Part shown: piece after piece, positions 10,893 to 27,119 of the stretch | Numbering within the stretch: position 1 is the first letter of the stretch | Layout of the letters: every line of letters begins with the position of its first letter | Made by a program: the position numbers and the translations under genes | Notes under the pieces: generated by a model | What the model saw: only the letters and a program-made list of their open reading frames with translations | Told to the model about the DNA's origin: nothing | Database searches by the model: none | IMG/VR virus record: IMGVR_UViG_3300006802_000441 | Location: 1-27,119 of that record | From: a virus | Direction: 5' to 3' (one strand) | Length of the DNA stretch: 27,119 nt

Positions 10893-11348
10893 TTATAAAA
10901 CATATCTGACAATAAGAGTTAATTCTCCTAACCCATAGCCACCACCGTCTTCATTTTGAAATAAACCCTCATCTGTACTCATAGATTCTATTATTATATC
11001 TTCTATTCCTTGATCGGGATTATCTGGTATGTTATAGATAACATGTTCTATATCTTCTAATAAATCATTTACCTCATTACGAGTATTGTCCGATTTATGA
11101 AAAAATCTTATGTTAATAGGCATAATACCTTCTACTAAATTAGCACTATTATATATTCTTTGTTCTACTCCCCCCAATACGTAAATACTAGGAAAATCAT
11201 TAATACTATCAAAAAACTTAAATCCTCTATATACATTATTAAATACGCTTTGCGTATAAGTATAAGAGTTATCAAACGAAGATACTTCTCCGTCTATTAA
11301 TTTTAGATTTTCTATTATATTGCTTATTATATTATTTCTTTTACTCAT
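10893..11348 (-). CDS. Tail terminator/completion-like protein, copy A
   Basis: A 151-residue protein next to the major tail protein, where the tail terminator (lambda U / HK97 gp10-neighbour type) usually lies. Conserved blocks are SVFNNVYRGFKF, SINDFPSIYV, INIRFFHK, DIEHVIY and STDEGLF. The same blocks recur in the gene at 23534-23995, so these are paralogs. No Shine-Dalgarno sequence is visible before the ATG at 11348; instead a TATACT box sits three bases upstream. The function is inferred from position. The family is not one I can name with certainty. Confidence 0.65.
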   Translation of the reverse strand: MSKRNNIISNIIENLKLIDGEVSSFDNSYTYTQSVFNNVYRGFKFFDSINDFPSIYVLGGVEQRIYNSANLVEGIMPINIRFFHKSDNTRNEVNDLLEDIEHVIYNIPDNPDQGIEDIIIESMSTDEGLFQNEDGGGYGLGELTLIVRYVL

Positions 11349-11390
11349 TTAAGTATACCAAATTAATTTTTTATTACAAAAATTAATTTT
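11349..11390 (-). promoter_or_regulatory. Possible internal promoter with direct repeat
   Basis: In this otherwise gapless operon a 42-base gap holds TTGTAA (11379-11374), a 16-base spacer and TATACT (11357-11352) on the minus strand. A 14-base AT-rich sequence, itself containing the palindrome AAATTAATTT, is repeated at 11360-11373 and 11380-11393. The -10-like box is so close to the ATG that a transcript would start at or just inside the gene, so the element could serve the major tail protein gene downstream instead. AT-richness makes chance matches likely. Confidence 0.3.
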
Positions 11391-11753
11391 TTAAAATCCT
11401 TTAAATATATTGAATTTGTGTCCCATAGCTTTCACAGTAACTCGTCTAATACTGCTTTCTATAAGTTTTCTAGGGTCTCTACCTGTAGTTTCATGAACTA
11501 TATAAATCGGATTATAGAAATAAAGAATAGCACGTAGTTTTCTGCTATAAAATACTTCTATACTTTTAGCAAATCTACCTGTTCTATAAGTAAGCACACT
11601 ATCTGACAAAGGTTTTCCGCCTACAGGGCCTTTTGGCATTCTATTAATAACACTTAGTTTAACTCGTCTACTTAATTCTTTTTCTGAAATACCAAACATC
11701 ATAGTGTCAAAAGCAGTTAAAGTATCCTTAACAAGTCCTTTTTTACGCATCAT
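11391..11753 (-). CDS. Head-tail joining / minor tail protein, HK97 gp10-like (tentative)
   Basis: About 120 residues from the ATG at 11753, chosen because GAGGAGG lies just upstream; an in-frame ATG at 11783 has no such site. The protein is basic at the N-terminus (MMRKKGLVKDTLTAF). It has a TYRTGRFAKSIEV strand and a YIVHETTGRDPRKLIESSIRRV helix, a pattern seen in HK97 gp10-type joining proteins (TG-R-L...S...GT..RP). Its place between the connector genes and the tail terminator supports a neck role. It overlaps the stop of the upstream 350-residue gene. Confidence 0.5.
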   Translation of the reverse strand: MMRKKGLVKDTLTAFDTMMFGISEKELSRRVKLSVINRMPKGPVGGKPLSDSVLTYRTGRFAKSIEVFYSRKLRAILYFYNPIYIVHETTGRDPRKLIESSIRRVTVKAMGHKFNIFKGF

Positions 11754-12795
11754 CTTCCTCCTCGTCGTCTTCAAAGAATTCATCTGTATCGTCGATAATA
11801 TTTAAGTTACCAATTATTTCCTCTAACTCATCTTTAGTATGAGTTCCTATAGTTATTGATAAAATTTTGGTATTTACTCCATTTAACAAATCTGATATAA
11901 AACCTTTTTCTCCTTTAGGATGCCTTTTAATAGCAGAAGAAGTAGCTATTTCTACATTTCTATTATCTAGTATGCTTCTAGACATATGAGCTTGTAACCT
12001 CTTTAATATTTTTCCCATACTAGATCCGTGTACTCCTATATCTACTTGATTAGTTTTAGTATTGATTCTAACAGATAAATCTTTAGAAGTTAATTTATTT
12101 TTGCCAACATTAGCAATTACTACCCCAAATTCTCTTCTCTTGCCATCTGTAGTTTGAATAGTTAAGGGTAGTGTAAATAAGTTAATCTTTCTTAAGAAAC
12201 TATTATTTTGTTTCATTTTTGATATTATGTTTTTTTTAGCTAACTTTAATTTCTCAGGATCTTTTTTTAATTGTTCAGCTATATGCTTAATACCTCTATT
12301 TTTAAAAGTTGCATCCCCTTTTCTTATTGAATCTACTACTTGCTTAGTTCTTGTCCCTTTTTCGCTATCTTTCAAACTAGATTCAGATAAAGTAGTACCA
12401 CCTATTTTAAAAGACATATTACCTCTAGAAAAAGAACCATCTTTGTTAGTATCTAATTTAAGCGCTTTATTTTTTACTTCTAACCCATCTACAATTTCTG
12501 GCAACATCGGTTCACTAAACCCACTAGTACCTTTTACTCTACTAAAAGAACTAACATAAAAAGCGTTAAGATCCATATTTCGCATCATTGCACTAGTTTT
12601 TATATCTGCCATACCACTAGACGTAGTATTGGTGGCGTTACGATAAGATCCTAATTTAAAATCTTTAATTAAAGATCGTTCGAGTCCTTCCCCCATTAAA
12701 GGGCTTAGATTACCACTGCCTGTTCTTCTCATTACCTTAGCAATTTCTTCTTTTACATCATCAGCATTTATATCATATATTAAAAATTGAACCAT
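11743..12795 (-). CDS. Hypothetical structural protein in the connector cluster
   Basis: A 350-residue protein I do not recognise. It is lysine-rich through the middle (residues ~100-200), has an IQTTDGKRREFGVVIANVG beta segment and ends in an extremely acidic tail (DDTDEFFEDDEEEDDA). There is no membrane segment or signal peptide. It starts at 12795 on the stop of the gp6-like connector gene and ends overlapping the gp10-like gene, so it belongs to the head-tail joining block and is probably a virion protein. Confidence 0.6.
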   Translation of the reverse strand: MVQFLIYDINADDVKEEIAKVMRRTGSGNLSPLMGEGLERSLIKDFKLGSYRNATNTTSSGMADIKTSAMMRNMDLNAFYVSSFSRVKGTSGFSEPMLPEIVDGLEVKNKALKLDTNKDGSFSRGNMSFKIGGTTLSESSLKDSEKGTRTKQVVDSIRKGDATFKNRGIKHIAEQLKKDPEKLKLAKKNIISKMKQNNSFLRKINLFTLPLTIQTTDGKRREFGVVIANVGKNKLTSKDLSVRINTKTNQVDIGVHGSSMGKILKRLQAHMSRSILDNRNVEIATSSAIKRHPKGEKGFISDLLNGVNTKILSITIGTHTKDELEEIIGNLNIIDDTDEFFEDDEEEDDA

Positions 12796-14395: not shown

Positions 14396-15817
14396 TTACG
14401 CGCTACGTACTACGGATGCAAAGCTATAGTTAGTTGCATTTAGAGCTGGAGCACTTGCAGTACCTGCAGTAGTTAGAGGTTTCATGTCCCAACGAGTTGA
14501 GAAGTATAACGCGGTAACTTCTGTACGAGGCTTATATTCGCTTTCAACCTGCATAGCACGTCTTTCAGCAATTTTAAACCCAGGCTTGTAGATTAGAGCA
14601 CCAATCTGTTCGTCACTTGAACCAGTGTTGTCTAAGAATTCAGTTACAACGATAGGAATACCGTAAACTGCTCCAACAGAACCTGTTAGATAAGTAGCGT
14701 TTGTTCCGATTTTGTCCACAGTTCTGAAATCAGAAGTCTGAACTAATTCGTTATATCCTTCAATAGTTGTTAAGAATACTAGATCCTGACCAAGCATTAA
14801 TCCGTATTTACCTAATTTAGCTCTTGCGCTAGCAATGTCAGCAGGGCTAACTTGCTGAGTAGCACCAGTGTCAACTCTTAGGCCAGAGATATCATTAGCA
14901 TGAGTAACCATACCTTTAATAACGGAGGCATAACCACTACCAGCGGTAATTGCGTTAGTAGGAGAAGCAGTAAATCCGCTTAAGCTACCGTCACCACGTA
15001 ATAGAGCCTTATCAATGGCACGAGCCATTCTTCTAGCAGCGCTTCTTCTTAAGAAGTCCATTAGAGGCATAATAGTATCTTCTTGTTCATCTTTTGATAG
15101 ATGGGTAGCAGCCATGAATTTGTGAGGAGTAAATTCTACTGCTCCAAATGAGTGCTGATTACTTACAGGTACTCTGGTAGTATCGTAAGCACCAGTAGCG
15201 AAAGTTCCGCTAGCAAACTGTGCTACGTCTCCATCAGTATCTTCGTCAGCAACAGGAACTCTGAAAGTTCTTGCGTCTACTTCAAATCTTTCAAGCATAG
15301 GAGCAATAATTAACTGTTGTTCCATTTCTTCAAAGATAGTAGTTGAGAAGTTACTTAAGAATGCATCTACAGTAGTAACTGCTTTTAATTTACTAGTATG
15401 TTTAGTATCAAATAATTTTTCAGTGTCAGGTAATTCTTTAGCTTTTGCATATAAATATAAGTTAGCTAACTGAATATTAGAATACTGAGATTTTGCAGTC
15501 TGAGATTCGTAAGCTAGTTTATCGTTCTGATAAGCCTGAGCTCTTTCAGCATTTTTCTTTACCTGCTGTTCTAGCTCTTTTACTTTCTCGTCTAAGGAAT
15601 AGTCTTCACGAATAACAACGTTGTCGTCATTCTTTTTACCTGTTTCTTCTAAGGTCTTTAGAAGTTCAGCAATTCTATCCCCTAGTACTTCTATTTTAGT
15701 AGAAGCATCAGATTTTGCTGTATCCACAGTAGATGTGTCCTGAGTTTTTACAGATTCGTCTTGTGATTTGTTAGAAGTATTAATTACTTCTACATCATCA
15801 ATTAATTGTTCTGCCAT
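14396..15817 (-). CDS. Major capsid protein with scaffold region, from an internal start
   Basis: Reading from the ATG at 15817, in frame with the longer gene, gives 473 residues: MAEQLIDDVEVINTS..., a coiled-coil delta/scaffold-like part to about residue 150, and the HK97-fold capsid (AVTTVDAFLSNFSTTIFEE..., residues ~160-473). AAGGAG (15832-15827) lies nine bases upstream, a stronger site than that of the full-length protein. Capsids need hundreds of capsid subunits but few proteases, so most capsid protein should come from this start. This nested arrangement recalls lambda C/Nu3. The internal start is inferred from sequence only. Confidence 0.75.
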   Translation of the reverse strand: MAEQLIDDVEVINTSNKSQDESVKTQDTSTVDTAKSDASTKIEVLGDRIAELLKTLEETGKKNDDNVVIREDYSLDEKVKELEQQVKKNAERAQAYQNDKLAYESQTAKSQYSNIQLANLYLYAKAKELPDTEKLFDTKHTSKLKAVTTVDAFLSNFSTTIFEEMEQQLIIAPMLERFEVDARTFRVPVADEDTDGDVAQFASGTFATGAYDTTRVPVSNQHSFGAVEFTPHKFMAATHLSKDEQEDTIMPLMDFLRRSAARRMARAIDKALLRGDGSLSGFTASPTNAITAGSGYASVIKGMVTHANDISGLRVDTGATQQVSPADIASARAKLGKYGLMLGQDLVFLTTIEGYNELVQTSDFRTVDKIGTNATYLTGSVGAVYGIPIVVTEFLDNTGSSDEQIGALIYKPGFKIAERRAMQVESEYKPRTEVTALYFSTRWDMKPLTTAGTASAPALNATNYSFASVVRSA

Positions 15818-17281
15818 TTCTTTTTTCTCCTTGTTAGCCACTTTATGGCCGTATGATATTAGGTTTTTATTTCTGCTATCGGACTCATTCATTTCTAATA
15901 GAGCTTCTACTGTGTCGCAATAGCGGTTAGCTAGCTTATAGTCGGCATCTGACCAATTTTTGCTAGATACTAAATTAATAGTAGTATTTAAAATTTTCTG
16001 ATTAGTGTCTCCCTGATCTTTTACACTATATAAATCTATAGTAGACATATTAATTAAATTATCGAAACGATCTCTAATAGATTTTCTATCTTGATCTTTT
16101 AAGTTTTTAATTTCTTTATGTTCGATAACGGAAATATCATAATCAGTTTCTAAATCCCATCTATTAACTAATCCTAAAGAACTACCTTTTATAGAAATTT
16201 CATTGTCTAAGTTTTCATTATCTAATGAAATTTCCTGTAACTTGAAGTTAGGGTCGTCTACAGTGGCAATTTTTTTAACAGTAAATCTGTTGCCACTTAT
16301 AACTAAATTATCCCCTTGTTTAATTTTACAAGTATCAGCATCTAATAAATTAACAAAAGGAATTTCTTTAGAATAATCTTCTACTTCTTCCTCTTCTGCT
16401 TCAACTTTATTAACTTCTTCTGTTGTTACTTCTTTGGTTACTTCTTCTTCTTTTTTAACTTCTTTGACTTCTTTGACTTCCTCGTCAACAATTTCGTCTT
16501 CATCCATAAGAACGATCTCCTTTGATTCTGCGTTATTAGCAGCTTTCATTGAAGGTCTTGTAGAGTCTTTCCAATCTTTTATTGAGTGTATATGACCTTC
16601 TTCCTCTTGAACCTCGAAATTGATCACCGCATGTTTATGCGTCACTCCGTTGCTGGAATAAGTAGAAACTCCATCTCCATTTTCATCTACTTCGAAACTG
16701 TGGTAATGAAAAATGTTTTTTGAGTCATTTTCAGAGCTACCTATTCCTGCTTTAAAAGAGGTTTCAAAATTTTCTTCTTCATCAATGATTTCTTTAATGA
16801 AATCTTTGTATTCTTCATCAGTATCAAAAGATTTTCTAATACTAAATAAACTATCTTGATTAGCTGGAACACTTACTACACTGATTTCAAATAAATCTAA
16901 ACTTTTAATAAAATTAGTATCAGTTTTTCTATCATAAGAAACTTTTTTTGGTAAGAAACCTACGCTAAAAGCTTTTAATGCACCATCTTTGATTAAGGTT
17001 TGTATTTCTTGTTTTGCACTAGAAATTTCTGCCTCAATATATAGACCATTTCTGTCTACAGTTACTTTACTAACTCTACCAATCGCGTCACTTCTATTAT
17101 GTTGATATAATAAAACTGGATTTTTTCTAAAGTTTTTTACACCATGTACCCAAGCTTCAGGTACTATAATATCTTTAGTACGATCTTTAGAAGTAGTATT
17201 AGCATAACCAGCAATCTTAAGCTTTTTACCTTTTGTCAGTGATTTTATTTCTTCACCGATTAAGTTAAATGACTTATTCAT
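14396..17281 (-). CDS. Prohead protease-capsid fusion polyprotein (HK97 type)
   Basis: A single 961-codon frame. Residues 1-150 are an HK97-type (S78) prohead protease: His61 in LLYQHNRSD, Ser106 in LKAFSVGF and Glu132 in FEISVVSVPAN. Residues 190-235 hold an unusual insert with three His-x-His pairs (192/194, 215/217, 230/232) and DENGDG, which looks metal-binding. A Glu/Lys-rich linker (~260-300) and an unknown domain (~305-480) follow. Residues ~490-961 contain a scaffold-like coiled coil (VKELEQQVKKNAERAQ) and then the HK97-fold capsid protein. In most phages protease and capsid are separate genes. The start at 17281 has TAGGAG. It lies between portal and decoration protein. Confidence 0.9.
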   Translation of the reverse strand: MNKSFNLIGEEIKSLTKGKKLKIAGYANTTSKDRTKDIIVPEAWVHGVKNFRKNPVLLYQHNRSDAIGRVSKVTVDRNGLYIEAEISSAKQEIQTLIKDGALKAFSVGFLPKKVSYDRKTDTNFIKSLDLFEISVVSVPANQDSLFSIRKSFDTDEEYKDFIKEIIDEEENFETSFKAGIGSSENDSKNIFHYHSFEVDENGDGVSTYSSNGVTHKHAVINFEVQEEEGHIHSIKDWKDSTRPSMKAANNAESKEIVLMDEDEIVDEEVKEVKEVKKEEEVTKEVTTEEVNKVEAEEEEVEDYSKEIPFVNLLDADTCKIKQGDNLVISGNRFTVKKIATVDDPNFKLQEISLDNENLDNEISIKGSSLGLVNRWDLETDYDISVIEHKEIKNLKDQDRKSIRDRFDNLINMSTIDLYSVKDQGDTNQKILNTTINLVSSKNWSDADYKLANRYCDTVEALLEMNESDSRNKNLISYGHKVANKEKKEMAEQLIDDVEVINTSNKSQDESVKTQDTSTVDTAKSDASTKIEVLGDRIAELLKTLEETGKKNDDNVVIREDYSLDEKVKELEQQVKKNAERAQAYQNDKLAYESQTAKSQYSNIQLANLYLYAKAKELPDTEKLFDTKHTSKLKAVTTVDAFLSNFSTTIFEEMEQQLIIAPMLERFEVDARTFRVPVADEDTDGDVAQFASGTFATGAYDTTRVPVSNQHSFGAVEFTPHKFMAATHLSKDEQEDTIMPLMDFLRRSAARRMARAIDKALLRGDGSLSGFTASPTNAITAGSGYASVIKGMVTHANDISGLRVDTGATQQVSPADIASARAKLGKYGLMLGQDLVFLTTIEGYNELVQTSDFRTVDKIGTNATYLTGSVGAVYGIPIVVTEFLDNTGSSDEQIGALIYKPGFKIAERRAMQVESEYKPRTEVTALYFSTRWDMKPLTTAGTASAPALNATNYSFASVVRSA
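15815..15832 (-). promoter_or_regulatory. Internal ribosome binding site for capsid protein
   Basis: AAGGAG, then nine A-rich bases, then ATG, all inside the protease-capsid frame at codon 489. It falls at the boundary between the acidic/unknown middle domain and the scaffold-capsid part, exactly where a separate capsid gene would begin. Confidence 0.7.
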
Positions 17282-17291
17282 AAATTTTCTC

Positions 17292-18527
17292 CTATTCAGA
17301 AGACTCTTGAGGCGGTCTTCCTCCTACGCTGGGATCAACATTACTTCCCGCTATGTTCTGCGGAATTCTAATACAATCACATTGTTCGTCATCCATTGGC
17401 TCTAGTCTTAGCTGTTTTCTAGCCTCGTTAACAGTAGCAATACCGCCGTTAACTAACATGCTCCAATATTGTGCCTGACTTTTAGCATCAGGTCTTAAAG
17501 CCGTTACTTCCAGTGTATTAGGTTTAACTTTTACATCTGGCCCAAAAAAATGAGCAAAAGCACTAGCAAATTGATCTAATATAGGAATTACTGTAAATTC
17601 AAAAAATAATTTCTCATTAGCACCAATGTTAGCGTTATTACCACTTCTTAATAGAACATAAGGAACACCTAAAGCTTTACTCATATCTTGTTGTAATCTA
17701 TCTACACTGTTTTCGAAATCTAATTCTTTGAAGTTAATATCACTAAACTTATCAATTTTTAAACCACCATCTAAAATGGCAGGACTTCTTGATCCGTTAA
17801 AGAAACTGGAATAATTTTGTCTCCACTGCTGAAGAACTCTTTCTTTAATTTTAGCACTTAACATATTATCTGTTGTTAATACTAACCCAGGTACTGCATT
17901 GTTCTTAAAGAATTGTTGTTGAAAATTTAATACAGAATAATAAGTATTAAATAATGTTTCTAAACTAGCTAACCTACTAGTACCTCTATGAATATCATCA
18001 TCATCGTCGTCTTTCACATGGATAATTTCATCAGTATTAAAATAAATGGTTCCTTTAGAATTAGTTTTTCTTGGATTAAAAAACCCGAAATACTCATCAT
18101 CCATTGGAGTATATTCAAAATGAGATACTAAGCCTTTCGTATCTCCTACTATGGATACGTTGTTAGCAGGTAGTAAATAAATAGCACCAGCTAAAGAATC
18201 ATAATAGAAAAAAGCATTTCCGTCTAAAATGAAATCTAGAAAAGCTCTTCTAAAGAATCTAGTTCTATCTTCAAAAGTATTAGGATAAATATTAATTAGC
18301 TTATTTATCTTTTTAGTAGGACCTCCGCCCTCTACTACAAACGGAACACTAGCACAACCATTAACTATTAAAGTACAACATCTATTAATGATTTCTACTT
18401 CTCTATAAGCCTGCTTATAATCTTCAATATTAGCAGGTCCAGAAGTTGAAAAAGATCCTAATATAGAAGGAGCATTAGGACTAACTTTTTCACTTATCCA
18501 TTGTCTGGCGTCTTGCCACAGACTCAT
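17292..18527 (-). CDS. Portal protein, HK97 family
   Basis: A 411-residue protein, close to the usual length of HK97 portals. Typical blocks are VEIINRCCTLIVNGCASVPFVV near residue 45, a FRRAFLDFILDGNAFFYYD block, the IIHVKDDDDDDIHRGTSRL loop, and ALGVPYVLLRSGNNANIGANEKLFFEFTVIPI. The portal is the dodecameric ring for DNA packaging. It starts at 18527 with AGAAGGAG and overlaps the HNH gene by 38 bases. The five consecutive aspartates near residue 175 are an oddity but lie in a surface loop. Confidence 0.95.
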   Translation of the reverse strand: MSLWQDARQWISEKVSPNAPSILGSFSTSGPANIEDYKQAYREVEIINRCCTLIVNGCASVPFVVEGGGPTKKINKLINIYPNTFEDRTRFFRRAFLDFILDGNAFFYYDSLAGAIYLLPANNVSIVGDTKGLVSHFEYTPMDDEYFGFFNPRKTNSKGTIYFNTDEIIHVKDDDDDDIHRGTSRLASLETLFNTYYSVLNFQQQFFKNNAVPGLVLTTDNMLSAKIKERVLQQWRQNYSSFFNGSRSPAILDGGLKIDKFSDINFKELDFENSVDRLQQDMSKALGVPYVLLRSGNNANIGANEKLFFEFTVIPILDQFASAFAHFFGPDVKVKPNTLEVTALRPDAKSQAQYWSMLVNGGIATVNEARKQLRLEPMDDEQCDCIRIPQNIAGSNVDPSVGGRPPQESSE

Positions 18528-18924
18528 AGTATTTCTCCTTCTGAATTTTTACCCAATTCTTTATTTTAGGGACCATACTATTAGAGTATGTTTGTCCATA
18601 AATGTTATGTAATCTTTCATGATGAGCTTTACACAAAGTTAAACAATTTCTATCATCTAGTTCTTCTTTATGATCTACCATGAAATTATATCTACTAGTT
18701 CGTATTACGTTTACATCATCTTTATCTAAATTATTTTTCTCTAACCAGGTATGAAATAATTCACTTAAACTGTACATATGATGTAATTCTAAATTACTTT
18801 TCTTATTACATATGTAACAGCTACTTTTTTTTCTGTAATTTTTCTTTATAACGTCACGAACGTATTTGGTGGGAACTCTTTTCAATTTTTCTACCTTTTT
18901 AATTATGTTTTTATAATAACACAC
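18490..18924 (-). CDS. HNH endonuclease of the packaging module
   Basis: Contains a zinc-bound HNH motif: CYICNKKSNLELHHMY, then NCLTLCKAHHERLHNIYG. In HK97-like phages an HNH protein beside terminase and portal is needed for DNA end cutting and packaging; the place here, between terminase and portal, fits that role. The frame begins with GTG at 18924. A TTG at 18885 (AAGG upstream) just before the conserved domain is a good alternative start, giving ~131 residues. Confidence 0.85.
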   Translation of the reverse strand: MCYYKNIIKKVEKLKRVPTKYVRDVIKKNYRKKSSCYICNKKSNLELHHMYSLSELFHTWLEKNNLDKDDVNVIRTSRYNFMVDHKEELDDRNCLTLCKAHHERLHNIYGQTYSNSMVPKIKNWVKIQKEKYYESVARRQTMDK

Positions 18925-18952
18925 TCTTTACAAAGAGACTATTTTTTATTTT

Positions 18953-19222
18953 TTAAGAACTCTTTTTCTTTTTTAAAGTAGCTTTATTAGTCTTTTTGTT
19001 GTATTTATAGCTACTTGCAGGATTATTAGAAGCTTTAGCAGCTCTGTCTTTTGCACGCTGTGCAGGTGTCATACTATTTCTTTTTTCGCCTTTTTTTGTC
19101 AAATCTAAACTCCCTTTTTTTAATATACCAGACTTTTGTAGCTGACTTACTGCTACGGCTCTACTGTTTTTAACACCTTTAGATCTTAATTGTCTAGTTA
19201 ATCTTTCTAAAATTTTAGGCAT
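18953..19222 (-). CDS. Small basic phage protein, conserved in marine phages
   Basis: An 89-residue, lysine/arginine-rich protein with RLTRQLRSKGVKNSRAVAVS, KRNSMTPAQRAKDRAAK and YKYNKKTNKATLKKK. From memory, proteins with this same layout are common as small conserved genes next to packaging or structural genes in aquatic phages; they have no established function. High positive charge suggests nucleic-acid binding. It overlaps the terminase stop by eight bases. Confidence 0.7.
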   Translation of the reverse strand: MPKILERLTRQLRSKGVKNSRAVAVSQLQKSGILKKGSLDLTKKGEKRNSMTPAQRAKDRAAKASNNPASSYKYNKKTNKATLKKKKSS

Positions 19223-20567
19223 CGTCTTCCTCCTGTTGAGACTTACTCAACATACTATCAGCTAAGCTAAATATTTGTCCATTATTTTTAGCATAAGTAT
19301 ATATAGCATATCTAATAGCATCACACATATGAGAGTGATCATCGTGTTCTGGTTTTTGAGTTTCAGTTTTTAGATTCCATTTATACCCTGCCATGTCATT
19401 GTAAACATCTAAAGCATCAGCATGTATAGTTAATTTATCATTTTGTAATAAGGTTTGTATAAAAGCTATTCCATCATTAACATTTTTCATAGCTAATTCA
19501 CAATAAATATCATAATCATATGCTAAATCTTGTTTAGTTTGAGCACTAGCACTATCAATATAAATCATATCTATATTATATTCATCTATTAATTCTTGAA
19601 TAGCTTCTGCGTGTTGACTAGTACTAACGTTATTAGCCTTATAACTAGCTAACACGTAGTACTTATCTTCTATTATAGCTATTACACACATAGCAGTATC
19701 ATCTCTGAACCCCATATCAAGTCCAGCAATAACATCTATTCTATAGTCATCAGTATTTATTACTCTATCAAACTGATGTCTTTCTTCATCCACTTCATAG
19801 ATTTGCCCTTCGAACACGGCCCAGTCACAGTAATATTCTTGCATAAAAATATTTTTAGGAAGGGTTTTCTTAGCGTCTTCAATATCTTTTTCCTTAAGCA
19901 TTTTATTAGTATACCAAGGAAATCTAGCACTACCCCACTCACTATATTCAGGATCTTCTCCACGATTATAATAAGTATATAGATAATTTAATTTACCTCT
20001 AGGAGTGCTAATAAATAACGCTCTACTGTTATCGAAGGTGGATAGAGCAGGTCTTAAATCTCTAGTAAAATATTCATCATCATTGATAATAGCTGCTTCG
20101 TCAATAATTAATAGATGGGCTTGACGCCCAATTAAGCTATCTCTATTGTTAGCAGATAATAATCTAAATACACTACCATTAATTAATTCTACTATCTTAT
20201 CTTTACTATTAAATTTTACAGTTTCTAGTTTTAAATCTTTAATAAAATCAGTAACATAATCCCAAATAATACTACTTAAGTTGTAGTTAGGCGCTACAAC
20301 AATTACTTGTTGATTTGGTTCTAGTAATTTAGCTAGAGCTATAACAGCCGCAGCCCAACTTTTACCTGTACGTCGTGCAGATATATGCACCCAAAATCTG
20401 TTAGTTTCTAATCCTTCTATCATAGCCCACTGACTTTCATTGAATTCTAGTGGTACTCCAGGATTATATTTATTGGGTAATTTAGATAACAACTTAGTTA
20501 TCGGTAATTTAATAAATCTATCTTTAGCCTTTTTAGGCACTTCATCTGGTATTTCTGTTACTTCCAT
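19215..20567 (-). CDS. terL: Terminase large subunit (packaging ATPase-nuclease)
   Basis: A 450-residue protein. The ATPase has a terminase-type Walker A, ARRTGKS (residues 64-70), and Walker B, LLIIDEAAI (Asp156, Glu157). The C-terminal RNase H-like nuclease has Asp284 in AGLDMGFRDD, Asp338 in MIYIDSA and Asp416 in SHMCDAIRYAIY. It pumps DNA through the portal and cuts it. It starts at 20567, sharing its first base with the stop of the membrane GAF-like gene. Confidence 0.95.
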   Translation of the reverse strand: MEVTEIPDEVPKKAKDRFIKLPITKLLSKLPNKYNPGVPLEFNESQWAMIEGLETNRFWVHISARRTGKSWAAAVIALAKLLEPNQQVIVVAPNYNLSSIIWDYVTDFIKDLKLETVKFNSKDKIVELINGSVFRLLSANNRDSLIGRQAHLLIIDEAAIINDDEYFTRDLRPALSTFDNSRALFISTPRGKLNYLYTYYNRGEDPEYSEWGSARFPWYTNKMLKEKDIEDAKKTLPKNIFMQEYYCDWAVFEGQIYEVDEERHQFDRVINTDDYRIDVIAGLDMGFRDDTAMCVIAIIEDKYYVLASYKANNVSTSQHAEAIQELIDEYNIDMIYIDSASAQTKQDLAYDYDIYCELAMKNVNDGIAFIQTLLQNDKLTIHADALDVYNDMAGYKWNLKTETQKPEHDDHSHMCDAIRYAIYTYAKNNGQIFSLADSMLSKSQQEEDDA

Positions 20568-24784: not shown

Positions 24785-24838
24785 TTTTCGGGGTGAGGGG
24801 CGATCTGTAGTTCCACAACCTCAAGTCGTAGAACCGCC
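24740..24838. other. Compositional junction
   Basis: Upstream DNA is strongly AT-rich with A/T-ending codons. From here to the window end it is about half G+C, and gene style, promoters and repeats all change. The plus frame open from 24760 to a TAG at 24855 reads like the proline-rich end of a protein (VVPQPQVVEPPYALDA) with no credible start, possibly the tail of a broken gene. There is no integrase, target duplication or tRNA at the boundary. Confidence 0.6.
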
Positions 24839-24957
24839 CTATGCGTTGGACGCATAGCTGGATCATGGTTATGCGTTCAGTGCATAACTACCAGCTATGC
24901 GTCCGCTGCATGTCTAAGCCATGCGTTTATTGCATGGCTTAGGCAATGCGTGCAGTT
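24839..24957. repeat. Four tandem hairpins with common ATGC-N7-GCAT core
   Basis: Cores start at 24841, 24871, 24897 and 24921. Each is ATGC, a seven-base loop beginning GTT or GTC, and GCAT. Stems outside the core differ but stay paired: CT/AG, GTT/AAC, (partly broken), TAAGCC/GGCTTA. A fifth half-copy, ATGCGTGCAGT, starts at 24946. Spacing is 24-30 bases. Compensatory stem changes suggest the structure is what is conserved. Confidence 0.75.
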
Positions 24958-25129
24958 CGCGTTTAGCCTTCTGCGATGCCGTTTCCTTGCAACGACAGAA
25001 CGAAAATTGGAAACGGTGGATGCGGATAAACGTGATTCCGCCGACACGGTTCCACGACACGCGCGGGAATAGCGGAATTTCAAATATCGCGATTGCGAGG
25101 ATTGCGAGGATAGCTAGAGCATACAACAT
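24914..25129 (-). CDS. Small membrane protein (tentative)
   Basis: A 71-residue frame with a hydrophobic start (MLYALAILAILAIAIFEIPLF) and a basic, aromatic domain (RVGGITFIRIHRFQFSFCRCK), then a Lys/Arg/Pro-rich end. Codon use is GC-ending, like the neighbouring genes. AAAGG lies ~12 bases upstream, rather far. Its last 14 codons run into the hairpin array. It is downstream and on the same strand as the 25205-25420 gene. Confidence 0.4.
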   Translation of the reverse strand: MLYALAILAILAIAIFEIPLFPRVSWNRVGGITFIRIHRFQFSFCRCKETASQKAKRELHALPKPCNKRMA

Positions 25130-25165
25130 AGCGTTTAAACGCCTTTCAATGGGGGCAGGACGGGC

Positions 25166-25197
25166 GCTAGGCTGTATCAGGTATGATACAGCCTAGC
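25166..25197. repeat. Perfect 14-bp inverted repeat
   Basis: Arms 25166-25179 and 25184-25197 pair perfectly around a GGTA loop. It begins eight bases past the stop of the minus-strand gene at 25205, so may end or stabilise its message; there is no T run, so it is not a classic intrinsic terminator. Confidence 0.7.
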
Positions 25198-25204
25198 AGA
25201 CGTG

Positions 25205-25420
25205 TCACGGGCGCTGGCCGATGTACCAGACCGCATCGTCAACAGCCTTTTTTGCCGCTTCTGCGCGCGTAGTAAGCCATGCGATATGTTCCACGCTTGC
25301 GCCGCGCTCTACCGCTTCTTCTAGCGTTATGAGCGCCATAGCGGCGCCATCAAGCAAAACGCTGCGGATAGCGTTCCATTCGTTGCTTGTCATGTCGTCC
25401 AGATACTTAAACTTGCTCAT
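25205..25420 (-). CDS. Small acidic helical protein, unknown
   Basis: A 71-residue protein (MSKFKYLDDMTSNEWNAIRS...) with a helix-rich acidic sequence, EEAVERGASVEHIAWLTTRAEAAKKAVDDAVW. A clean AGGAGA ribosome site sits six bases upstream of the ATG at 25420, and a promoter (TTGCAA-N16-TATTGT) just before. No known family seen. It is divergent from the Csx16-like gene. Confidence 0.65.
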   Translation of the reverse strand: MSKFKYLDDMTSNEWNAIRSVLLDGAAMALITLEEAVERGASVEHIAWLTTRAEAAKKAVDDAVWYIGQRP

Positions 25421-25449
25421 AACTATCTCCTATGTGATTGACTATCCCC

Positions 25450-25477
25450 ACAATACAGGATTGATCGGACGTTGCAA
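25450..25477 (-). promoter_or_regulatory. Promoter for the 25205-25420 gene
   Basis: TTGCAA (25477-25472), 16 bases, TATTGT (25455-25450) on the minus strand. The sequence TATTGTGG at the -10 region is identical to that of the divergent csx16-like promoter. Confidence 0.5.
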
Positions 25478-25490
25478 CACTTAATTTCAC

Positions 25491-25591
25491 CACGACGACC
25501 ACGACGACCACGACGACCACGACGACCACGACGACCACGACGACCACGACGATTGTGCCATCCAGGCGGACGATTGTGTCGTCCAGGCGTA
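25491..25591. repeat. Nine-base tandem repeat (seven copies) and 21-base pair repeat
   Basis: CACGACGAC repeats seven times (25491-25553, last unit ending in T). It is followed by two 21-base copies (25550-25570 and 25571-25591) differing at three positions. The block lies between two divergent promoters. Reading it as protein gives only Pro-Arg-Arg or poly-Val runs, so I regard it as non-coding. Confidence 0.8.
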
Positions 25592-25639
25592 CGATTAAGA
25601 CGATTCGACAAAGCCAGGCAATTATCGGCAATCAACGTA

Positions 25640-25667
25640 TTGACACCTAACGCCGTTGCTATATTGT
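25640..25667 (+). promoter_or_regulatory. Promoter for the Csx16-like gene
   Basis: Consensus TTGACA (25640-25645), 16 bases, TATTGT (25662-25667), 36 bases before ATG 25703. Confidence 0.6.
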
Positions 25668-25702
25668 GGTGACAGTCAATAACACTTATGAGGAATTTAG
25701 CT

Positions 25703-26167
25703 ATGACCGACGTTTGGACCTGCCGCGAATGTGAGACTGAAAATGACGTTGAAGCGGACCCGCGTAACGCGCGGGATTGCCGTTCGTGCGGTTGTGTCCG
25801 CACGGAATCGTCATGGGTTGCAGACGCTATTGCGTCCGCGTCCGCCCCTGTGATCGTAGACAATACGGTTACGCTTTACGATTACGACGACGTCGTAGTC
25901 GTCACGCGCCATATGGCGCTTGTGACCTATCTCGAACTGACTGGCGTAATTGAGAAAGACACGCCCGTTATACAGCACGCGACGGCGGAAGCCGTCGCGG
26001 GTCGTCATATCATCGGCGTTCTGCCCTATCGCCTTGCGGCATTGGCACAAAGTGTGACGGAAATTCCGCTGGACGTTCCGGCAGAATTGCGCGGAAAAGA
26101 ATTGACAATTGCGCAAATTCGTGAATTCGCAAGCGATCCAGTGACCTACAAAGTGGCTCGCCAATAA
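25703..26167 (+). CDS. csx16: Zinc ribbon-Csx16 (VVA1548-family) fusion protein
   Basis: A 154-residue protein from ATG 25703 (GAGGA ribosome site eight bases upstream; an ATG at 25688 is less likely). Residues 5-31 form a RanBP2-like zinc ribbon, W5-x-C7-x2-C10...C26-x2-C29, with a longer loop than usual. Residues ~63-154 match the Csx16/VVA1548 family: VVVVTRH, a central His92, GRHIIGVLPYRLAA, and IPLDVPAELRGKELT. Csx16 occurs with type III CRISPR loci and has been proposed as a cyclic-oligoadenylate ring nuclease. No cas genes or CRISPR array are in the window, so here it may be an anti-CRISPR-like gene of a mobile element. The zinc ribbon is an unusual addition. Confidence 0.8.
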   Translation: MTDVWTCRECETENDVEADPRNARDCRSCGCVRTESSWVADAIASASAPVIVDNTVTLYDYDDVVVVTRHMALVTYLELTGVIEKDTPVIQHATAEAVAGRHIIGVLPYRLAALAQSVTEIPLDVPAELRGKELTIAQIREFASDPVTYKVARQ

Positions 26168-26218
26168 GGCGAGTCACGCAAGAGTCATTCGCGTCTATCA
26201 CTAGATGCGAATGATTCT
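26153..26218 (+). terminator. Two strong hairpins ending the Csx16-like gene
   Basis: Hairpin one: 26153-26162 with 26168-26177, with the stop codon in its AATAA loop. Hairpin two: a 17-pair stem, 26181-26197 with 26202-26218, loop TCAC, allowing G-U pairs. There is no long T run, so termination is likely but not certain. Confidence 0.6.
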
Positions 26219-26342
26219 TAGCTGGCGGCGCCGGCCACATACGGATTCCCACACTAGCAGAATAGGCTAGAAATGTATCATCGTCAATACCTAAAATGCA
26301 GGTCTATCACATTTTTTTCGATTCATGGTTTGTCTATCTTTT

Positions 26343-26469
26343 GTTCTATTTTTGTTCACGATTTGTTGCCTCGGCACCGAACAAAACGTGAACAAAACGT
26401 GAACAAAGCGTGAACGAAACGAGAACAAAGCGTGAACAAAGCAAAGTCAAGGGGAACAAAACGTAAACA
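26343..26469. repeat. 11-bp-phased GAAC/GTTC array resembling LexA (SOS) boxes
   Basis: GAAC occurs at 26379, 26390, 26401, 26412, 26423 and 26434, exactly 11 bases apart, and again at 26454. GTTC occurs at 26343 and 26354, with GTTG at 26365, in the opposite orientation. GTTC-N7-GTTC is the alphaproteobacterial LexA box. The six GAAC copies make five overlapping boxes. Replication iterons are the alternative. Confidence 0.7.
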
Positions 26470-26478
26470 AACGGGCAA

Positions 26479-26719
26479 CGGTAATTATACCGCACAATGC
26501 CTACAACCCAGGGTGGTGCGGTAAACGGACCGGATTTTACCGATTCGGTATATACGCCGCACAATATTTATTTTTACACACAGTCATTTTTATTTACCGG
26601 AAATCCTGGCGAAAAGATAACAATTTCAATGGGTTACGAATTACCGCATAACCTGTCAATACCAGCCAAATTCCTCTAATGTTTTCAATAGCTTATGTGT
26701 TGCGTATCTTAATTTACCG
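26479..26719. repeat. Cluster of TACCG/CGGTA motifs
   Basis: Eight copies on either strand within 241 bases, at 26479, 26488, 26519, 26538, 26546, 26595, 26642 and 26715. These include the inverted pair TACCGCAC/GTGCGGTA (26488-26495 and 26516-26523) and the palindrome TACCGATTCGGTA (26538-26550). About 0.5 would be expected by chance. The last copy lies in the spacer of the next promoter. The gap 26168-26773 holds only these, the hairpins and the GAAC array; no gene is credible. Confidence 0.6.
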
Positions 26720-26727
26720 TGTATACT
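26700..26727 (+). promoter_or_regulatory. Promoter for the last gene
   Basis: TTGCGT (26700-26705), 16 bases, TATACT (26722-26727), ~47 bases before ATG 26774. The TACCG motif in the spacer could be an operator. Confidence 0.55.
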
Positions 26728-26773
26728 TGAGTCACGGCGCGCAATTCTGCCGCTGTTTTCGGAGGTTGTTACA

Positions 26774-27119
26774 ATGGCTTATTCGATCCGCTCTACCGAA
26801 TTCAAGGAAACTGCCCGCCGTGTCCGACATGGTGGCGCGACAGTCAGTGTTGAAGCCCGAATTGACGCGGGCGAATTCACTACCGCCGCTGCCGCTGCAC
26901 TCGAAAAGAAAATTGACCAAGCCCGCGCCCGGAACGGGCGCAAATCGGCAATCCGCGCGCCGCACAATTTCTCTAAGGCAATCCGCCGCAATGTCATCGG
27001 CGTTCAGTGCCATTGTGGCAATCGTGCAGACAATGCCGATCACATTGTGCCGATTGAAGCTTTCGGCATCCTGAAGGCTTCAATGCTGCCGGAGATTGCA
27101 GCTTTTCTGAATGATGACA
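26774..27119 (+). CDS. Partial protein with HNH-like DHIVP motif (runs off right edge)
   Basis: 115 codons from ATG 26774 (GGAGG eight bases upstream), no stop in the window. Residues 79-93 read C-H-C-G-N-R-A-D-N-A-D-H-I-V-P. A zinc-like Cys pair before DHIVP is the first half of many HNH nucleases, and the second half would lie beyond the edge. The N-terminal part (ARIDAGEFTTAAAAALEKKIDQARARNG) is an Ala/Arg-rich helix. A nuclease is likely, but the missing C-terminus prevents a firm call. GC-ending codons match the Csx16-like gene. Confidence 0.5.
   Translation, partial: MAYSIRSTEFKETARRVRHGGATVSVEARIDAGEFTTAAAAALEKKIDQARARNGRKSAIRAPHNFSKAIRRNVIGVQCHCGNRADNADHIVPIEAFGILKASMLPEIAAFLNDD

Follow-up and report, generated by a model that had tools for sequence, protein, structure and literature searches.

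Near the right end of a linear virus contig of 27,119 bp (IMG/VR record IMGVR_UViG_3300006802_000441; the whole contig is called the window here), we found a gene that fuses an N-terminal zinc ribbon to a Csx16 core. Judging from its sequence, the encoded protein is probably a phage accessory ring nuclease of the Csx16 family that would degrade cyclic tetra-adenylate (cA4) and so act against type III CRISPR immunity. Csx16 is an established family whose activity, like its rare occurrence in phages, has been described before. The representative that was studied breaks cA4 down completely into linear products but does not degrade cyclic tri- or hexa-adenylate (cA3 and cA6), and the family has been recorded in 68 type III loci and in 2 of 28,114 phage genomes (PMC12409355). 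An earlier reading of the window from its letters alone (the sequence-only reading) had tied the family to type III second messengers, which agrees with this published cA4 ring-nuclease activity (PMC12409355). It had also proposed a cleavage assay with cA4 and cA6; the published enzyme does not cleave cA6, so a cA6 assay would serve as a negative control. In the literature that we searched, which covers few subscription journals, we found neither the zinc-ribbon architecture nor an abundance of Csx16 in uncultivated viruses.

The Csx16 core

Residues 66–151 match PF09652 (Csx16, Cas_VVA1548) at 57.2 bits (E 2e-15; cut-off, 25), with a further score of 58.3 bits, and the Csx16 models of PADLOC also match the protein (E 2.3e-14). 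The sequence-only reading had recognized a Csx16 core and named this profile search as its check; the assignment stands well above the cut-off. All residues that are invariant among 26 aligned viral Csx16 proteins are kept (R69, H70, G105, L107, P108 and L111), as are the near-invariant T68, H92, R130, G131 and L134. The AlphaFold2 (AF2) model, with a mean predicted local distance difference test (pLDDT) score of 84.9, has a confident alpha/beta core in which the conserved TRH ends the first strand, and a disordered linker (pLDDT <50 at residues 46–59).

Structure searches with the full model and with the ribbon returned no significant match, and the CARF, zf-RanBP and RNA-polymerase ribbon entries were inseparable from noise. 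The CARF entries 8t66 (Cam1), 9c68 (Cad1) and 7z55 (ring nuclease Sis0455) matched at Z 3.3–4.1. The fusion protein has no DUF1874 or SAVED profile match in Pfam at E ≤ 0.1. A total of 162 profile matches in the PDB (DARPins) were dismissed as chance, given that the LPLHLAA motif of the protein resembles ankyrin repeats.

The zinc ribbon and its recurrence

Residues 5–35 form a C-x2-C...C-x2-C ribbon with C7, C10, C26 and C29 as putative ligands, accompanied by W5 and N14. Shuffling the region yields a C-x2-C...C-x2-C motif in 0.055% of cases, and AF2 predicts the ribbon with pLDDT 82–89 over residues 1–30 and a beta hairpin (4–6/13–15). No named zinc-ribbon or zf-RanBP family exceeds its Pfam cut-off, the best sub-threshold scores being NZF-N (16.2 bits) and TFIIB (13.7 bits). 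The best Foldseek match of the ribbon, to a zf-RanBP structure, is non-significant.

Among 34 IMG/VR contigs with Csx16, just two besides the window carry the ribbon. In one (L050) the N terminus is complete and the contig ends within the core; the other (L028) starts within the ribbon and has a complete core. Both have a guanine–cytosine (GC) content of ~62%, and they come from two metagenomes and overlap by 329 identical bases, which indicates that they represent the same phage species. In L050, portal, terminase (by Pfam) and methylase/ParB-like genes share a strand, and the fusion gene lies on the opposite one, divergent from them. A scan for further ribbon carriers returned L050 alone.

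All four ribbon cysteines are conserved in L050, in which the ribbon retains WTCRECETEN and CRSCGC-x-RTE and the linker has diverged; the L050 ribbon scores 15.8 bits against RPAB4, also sub-threshold. The sequence-only reading had proposed a zinc ribbon fused to Csx16, and a four-cysteine motif that is rare in shuffles and conserved in an independent phage bears this out. Between the window and L050, rates of non-synonymous and synonymous substitution (dN/dS) are 0.29/2.48 for the ribbon and 0.42/3.54 for the core. As dN is well below dS in each, this codon comparison indicates that ribbon and core are both under purifying selection. Because dS is saturated, the low dN alone is informative, and by this measure constraint on the ribbon seems no weaker than on the core. 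An open stretch of 64 codons is by itself not rare (8% of shuffles). We rejected the ribbon as an artefact of reading through upstream DNA, given its retention in L050 and a dN far below dS; an origin of the fusion from two genes by frameshift was ruled out by the one continuous frame. Phylogenetically, both ribbon carriers fall on a branch of four rows (82/85) in which two proteins without a ribbon are nested; in this weakly resolved tree, the pattern fits one gain of the ribbon and a loss.

Csx16 in other viruses and plasmids

The 34 IMG/VR contigs, some of them near-copies, were found with narrow patterns based on alignments; a single-sequence query with the fusion protein found no relatives in viral contigs, whereas the alignment queries succeeded. 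Identity is 34–62% in 32 of the 34 and 26% in the other two (L005 and L006). Csx16 neighbours in viral contigs include terminases, a P22-type portal, family A DNA polymerase, primase and ribonucleotide reductase; in one contig (L020) 4 bp separate Csx16 from the DNA polymerase gene before it, and another (L014) has it near terminase genes. Tests for the Cas10 palm domain covered 29 other virus records and 3 plasmid records and were negative in all of them. In the stretches shown of the three plasmid records, Csx16 lies outside any annotated CRISPR locus, and two of the three were typed with MPF_T conjugation genes. A tblastn search of the INPHARED phage collection (50,697 records) gave zero matches, so this clade is nearly invisible in an isolate-based phage collection.

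These contexts bear on whether the gene is a host-side regulator, that is, a type III accessory ring nuclease of cellular origin, picked up by chance and without a viral role. Csx16 has been described mostly from type III loci (68 loci; PMC12409355), a point in favour of chance capture. Yet no viral record tested contains Cas10, Csx16 recurs in unrelated phage contexts and the gene shows purifying selection; we give chance capture very little credence.

Several of these records show other arrangements. In L005 (7,707–8,273) and L006 (7,728–8,270), phage contigs of ~137 kb, a Csx16-like protein carries a different N-terminal domain of ~95 amino acids, another fusion architecture. Plasmid pMESIL02 (L002, 5,983–6,768) encodes a tandem double Csx16, with two PF09652 stretches in 261 amino acids, between conjugation genes, and a relative is found in Meiothermus luteus (L010). 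The Csx16 of L034 (9,992–10,345), a low-GC phage contig, ends in a short Cys-rich C-terminal tail (CQCGSGFYNDICPYNSEFCG), possibly an independent metal-binding addition. On a 64.5-kb element (L011), type IV CRISPR genes (11,058–12,705) lie ~2–4 kb downstream of Csx16; they include Csf2 by PADLOC (E 1.8e-74) and, by eye, csf1- and csf3-like genes. This mobile element would combine a type IV system with a putative type III off-switch.

Proposed function

We propose that cA4 would be synthesized by Cas10 of a host type III CRISPR system during infection, and that a presumed dimer of the Csx16 core would capture this cA4 and cleave it to linear products. This would silence effectors activated by cA4 (Csx1, Can1/2, Cam1 and the like) and let the phage infection continue. 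Catalysis and cA4 specificity are what we would expect from the characterized Csx16, and a counter-defence role would be their presumed outcome. That the protein may counter type III immunity had been suggested by the sequence-only reading, and the suggestion fits both the published cA4 activity and the recurrence of Csx16 on contigs of phages and plasmids without Cas10.

Alternatively, Csx16 could be a cA4 sponge instead of an enzyme, or could act on another cyclic nucleotide, such as the signal of a cyclic-oligonucleotide-based antiphage signalling system (CBASS). Phage sponges against nucleotide signals are common and the phage clade has diverged from the Csx16 of CRISPR loci, but the protein retains every residue conserved in the family, T-R-H and H92 among them, and the characterized Csx16 is an efficient cA4-specific enzyme (PMC12409355). 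Moreover, type III signalling produces an abundant signal that sponging handles poorly (PMC13148439). We regard a sponge, or another substrate, as improbable.

Several points weigh against a phage-borne ring nuclease that degrades cA4. The NCBIfam equivalog for Csx16 of CRISPR loci, TIGR02620, scores 17.8 bits and does not reach its cut-off of 46.35, which makes the protein a Csx16-domain protein of a divergent clade, outside the well-sampled CRISPR-locus clade. The structural matches to CARF entries do not rank above methyltransferases or other Rossmann folds. The DNA that carries the gene may owe its link to the low-GC phage, which makes up most of the window, to an artificial join. For the viral ring nuclease AcrIII-1, a real anti-CRISPR action under native expression is disputed (Nature 2025, cited as refs 35–36 of PMC12751052).

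Within the proposed ring nuclease, the ribbon would fold on its own, tethered by a flexible linker. The sequence-only reading had suggested that it could direct the protein to RNA, ribosomes or another protein. Our guess is that it serves in docking, most likely as a contact to nucleic acid or protein; stabilization or oligomerization would be an alternative role. More specifically, the ribbon might dock Csx16 at the target RNA, the Cas10 complex, RNA polymerase or the ribosome, with cA4 being destroyed where it is made. This specific version seems rather unlikely to us; if true, a lineage of phages would have evolved a ribbon-targeted ring nuclease, a type III anti-CRISPR of novel architecture.

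The contig and the origin of its right-hand segment

Positions 1–24,784 of the window form a siphophage-like late region of ~30% GC with terminase, portal, protease–capsid, major tail and tape measure genes. The terminase shows 40–41% identity to the terminases of enterobacterial phages of 110–120 kb, Serratia phage Slocum among them. A contig of 5,105 bp (L052) is 99.94% identical to positions 15,057–20,161, which shows that the low-GC phage is real. No Cas10 is found in the window record, which is a fragment, and the remainder consists largely of phage structural genes, in line with the earlier placement of the fusion gene outside a CRISPR locus. In this late region, prohead protease and major capsid protein share one open reading frame (ORF) of 961 amino acids (14,396–17,281; Peptidase_S78 plus Phage_capsid).

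At position 24,788 the composition changes from ~30% to ~53% GC (log-likelihood gain, 102), implying that the right-hand 2.3 kb were either recently acquired or attached by a chimeric join. We hold true import and a chimeric join to be about equally probable. In the case of a join, the segment would come from a different, higher-GC phage and would have been attached during assembly, the gene being real and not of the main phage of the window. The switch is abrupt and falls 4 bp past the stop of an Ntn-hydrolase gene whose C terminus looks complete, which favours an assembly join, although natural module exchange, too, has its junctions at gene ends. The dinucleotide profile of the right segment is nearer to the L028/L050 phage (distance, 175–179) than to the left part (261), and the closest relative of the left part (L053) stays at ~30% GC beyond its Ntn-hydrolase gene, in a record without Csx16. 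Furthermore, the fusion gene of L050 is divergent from that phage's own late genes, the layout expected if the right segment was cut from such a phage. Import is favoured by the low-GC contig L034 (~31% GC), in which Csx16 (46% GC) lies in a GC-elevated stretch beyond the late genes, and a search for a parental contig that continues differently was negative. Searches for an independent contig spanning the junction, for a tRNA or Rfam feature at it and for relatives of the neighbouring high-GC ORFs, sought to trace a source phage, found none.

The fusion itself is independent of the junction because L050 and L028 show it separately, and our main reading draws on the gene family and on these two contigs. 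The sequence-only reading had seen a mobile-looking region, and the record is a viral one, yet the segment may not be part of the low-GC phage occupying most of the window.

About 50 bp from the GC boundary lies an array (24,841–24,960) of four palindromes ATGCGT-N5-GCAT, at 24,841, 24,871, 24,897 and 24,921, with a half site at 24,946. The array forms very strong hairpins (z −8.7) and is operator- or origin-like.

Organization of the fusion gene

The fusion gene appears to be a single-gene unit (Table 1). The longest predicted ORF opens at an in-frame ATG at 25,688; the start used here is favoured by the N terminus of the L050 homologue (MEDTNWTC...). Shortly upstream of the gene is a perfect 9-bp tandem repeat, ACCACGACG, at 25,489–25,561. 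Iteron-like direct repeats GAACAAA(A/G)CGT with 11-bp spacing (26,368–26,484) precede an unassigned ORF at 26,774 and may be a replication or regulator site.

Table 1. Features of the fusion gene and its surroundings in the window
Feature	Position	Strand	Basis
Compositionally foreign segment (~53% GC) with the fusion gene	24785–27119		GC change point; dinucleotide distance
Candidate sigma-70-like promoter, TTGACA-16-TATTGT	25640–25667	+	Such sites in the region do not exceed the chance number
Shine–Dalgarno-like GAGGA, 8 nt 5' of the ATG	25690–25694	+	Direct reading of the sequence
Zinc-ribbon–Csx16 fusion gene, 154 amino acids	25703–26167	+	Single intact ORF; PF09652; architecture shared by L050/L028
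N-terminal zinc ribbon, residues 1–36, W-x-C-x2-C-x3-N-x11-C-x2-C-G	25703–25810	+	Sequence; AF2; sub-threshold Pfam; dN/dS
Linker, residues 37–63, weakly conserved, probably flexible	25811–25891	+	Low pLDDT; diverged in L050
Csx16 (PF09652) core, residues 64–151, T68-R69-H70, H92, G105-V-L-P108	25892–26155	+	Profiles; alignment; AF2
Hairpin with 18-bp stem right after the Csx16 stop, possible transcript end, without a U tract	26178–26219	+	−40.9 kcal/mol; z −7.4

Comparison with known systems

Few viral ring nucleases are known: AcrIII-1, AcrIII-2, Csx20 and, in a handful of phages, Csx16, and their anti-CRISPR role is debated. Against this background, Csx16 proves far commoner in uncultivated phage contigs (34 in IMG/VR) than in an isolate-based collection (0 of 50,697 records), and away from Cas10 where tested. 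The sequences gathered here provide material for asking if type III immunity is inhibited by the Csx16 of viruses and if the location of a ring nuclease matters.

With Csx16 (PF09652/Cas_VVA1548), the window protein shares the core, T-R-H, the conserved H, G-x-LP and RGxEL, and it is ~40% identical to annotated Csx16 on plasmids of Deinococcota. It differs from the Csx16 of CRISPR loci in its ribbon and linker, the lack of a CRISPR locus, its score below TIGR02620 and its viral record. Stand-alone Csx16 proteins of phages and plasmids are closer, with cores that are 26–62% identical, a mobile-element context and no Cas10 where tested, but among them the N-terminal ribbon is confined to the window and the L050/L028 phage. 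Viral degradation of cA4 is the role, and cA4 the substrate, that the protein would share with AcrIII-1 (DUF1874) and AcrIII-2 (viral SAVED; PMC12409355, PMC12751052); these belong to other protein families, for which the literature covered does not report a zinc ribbon.
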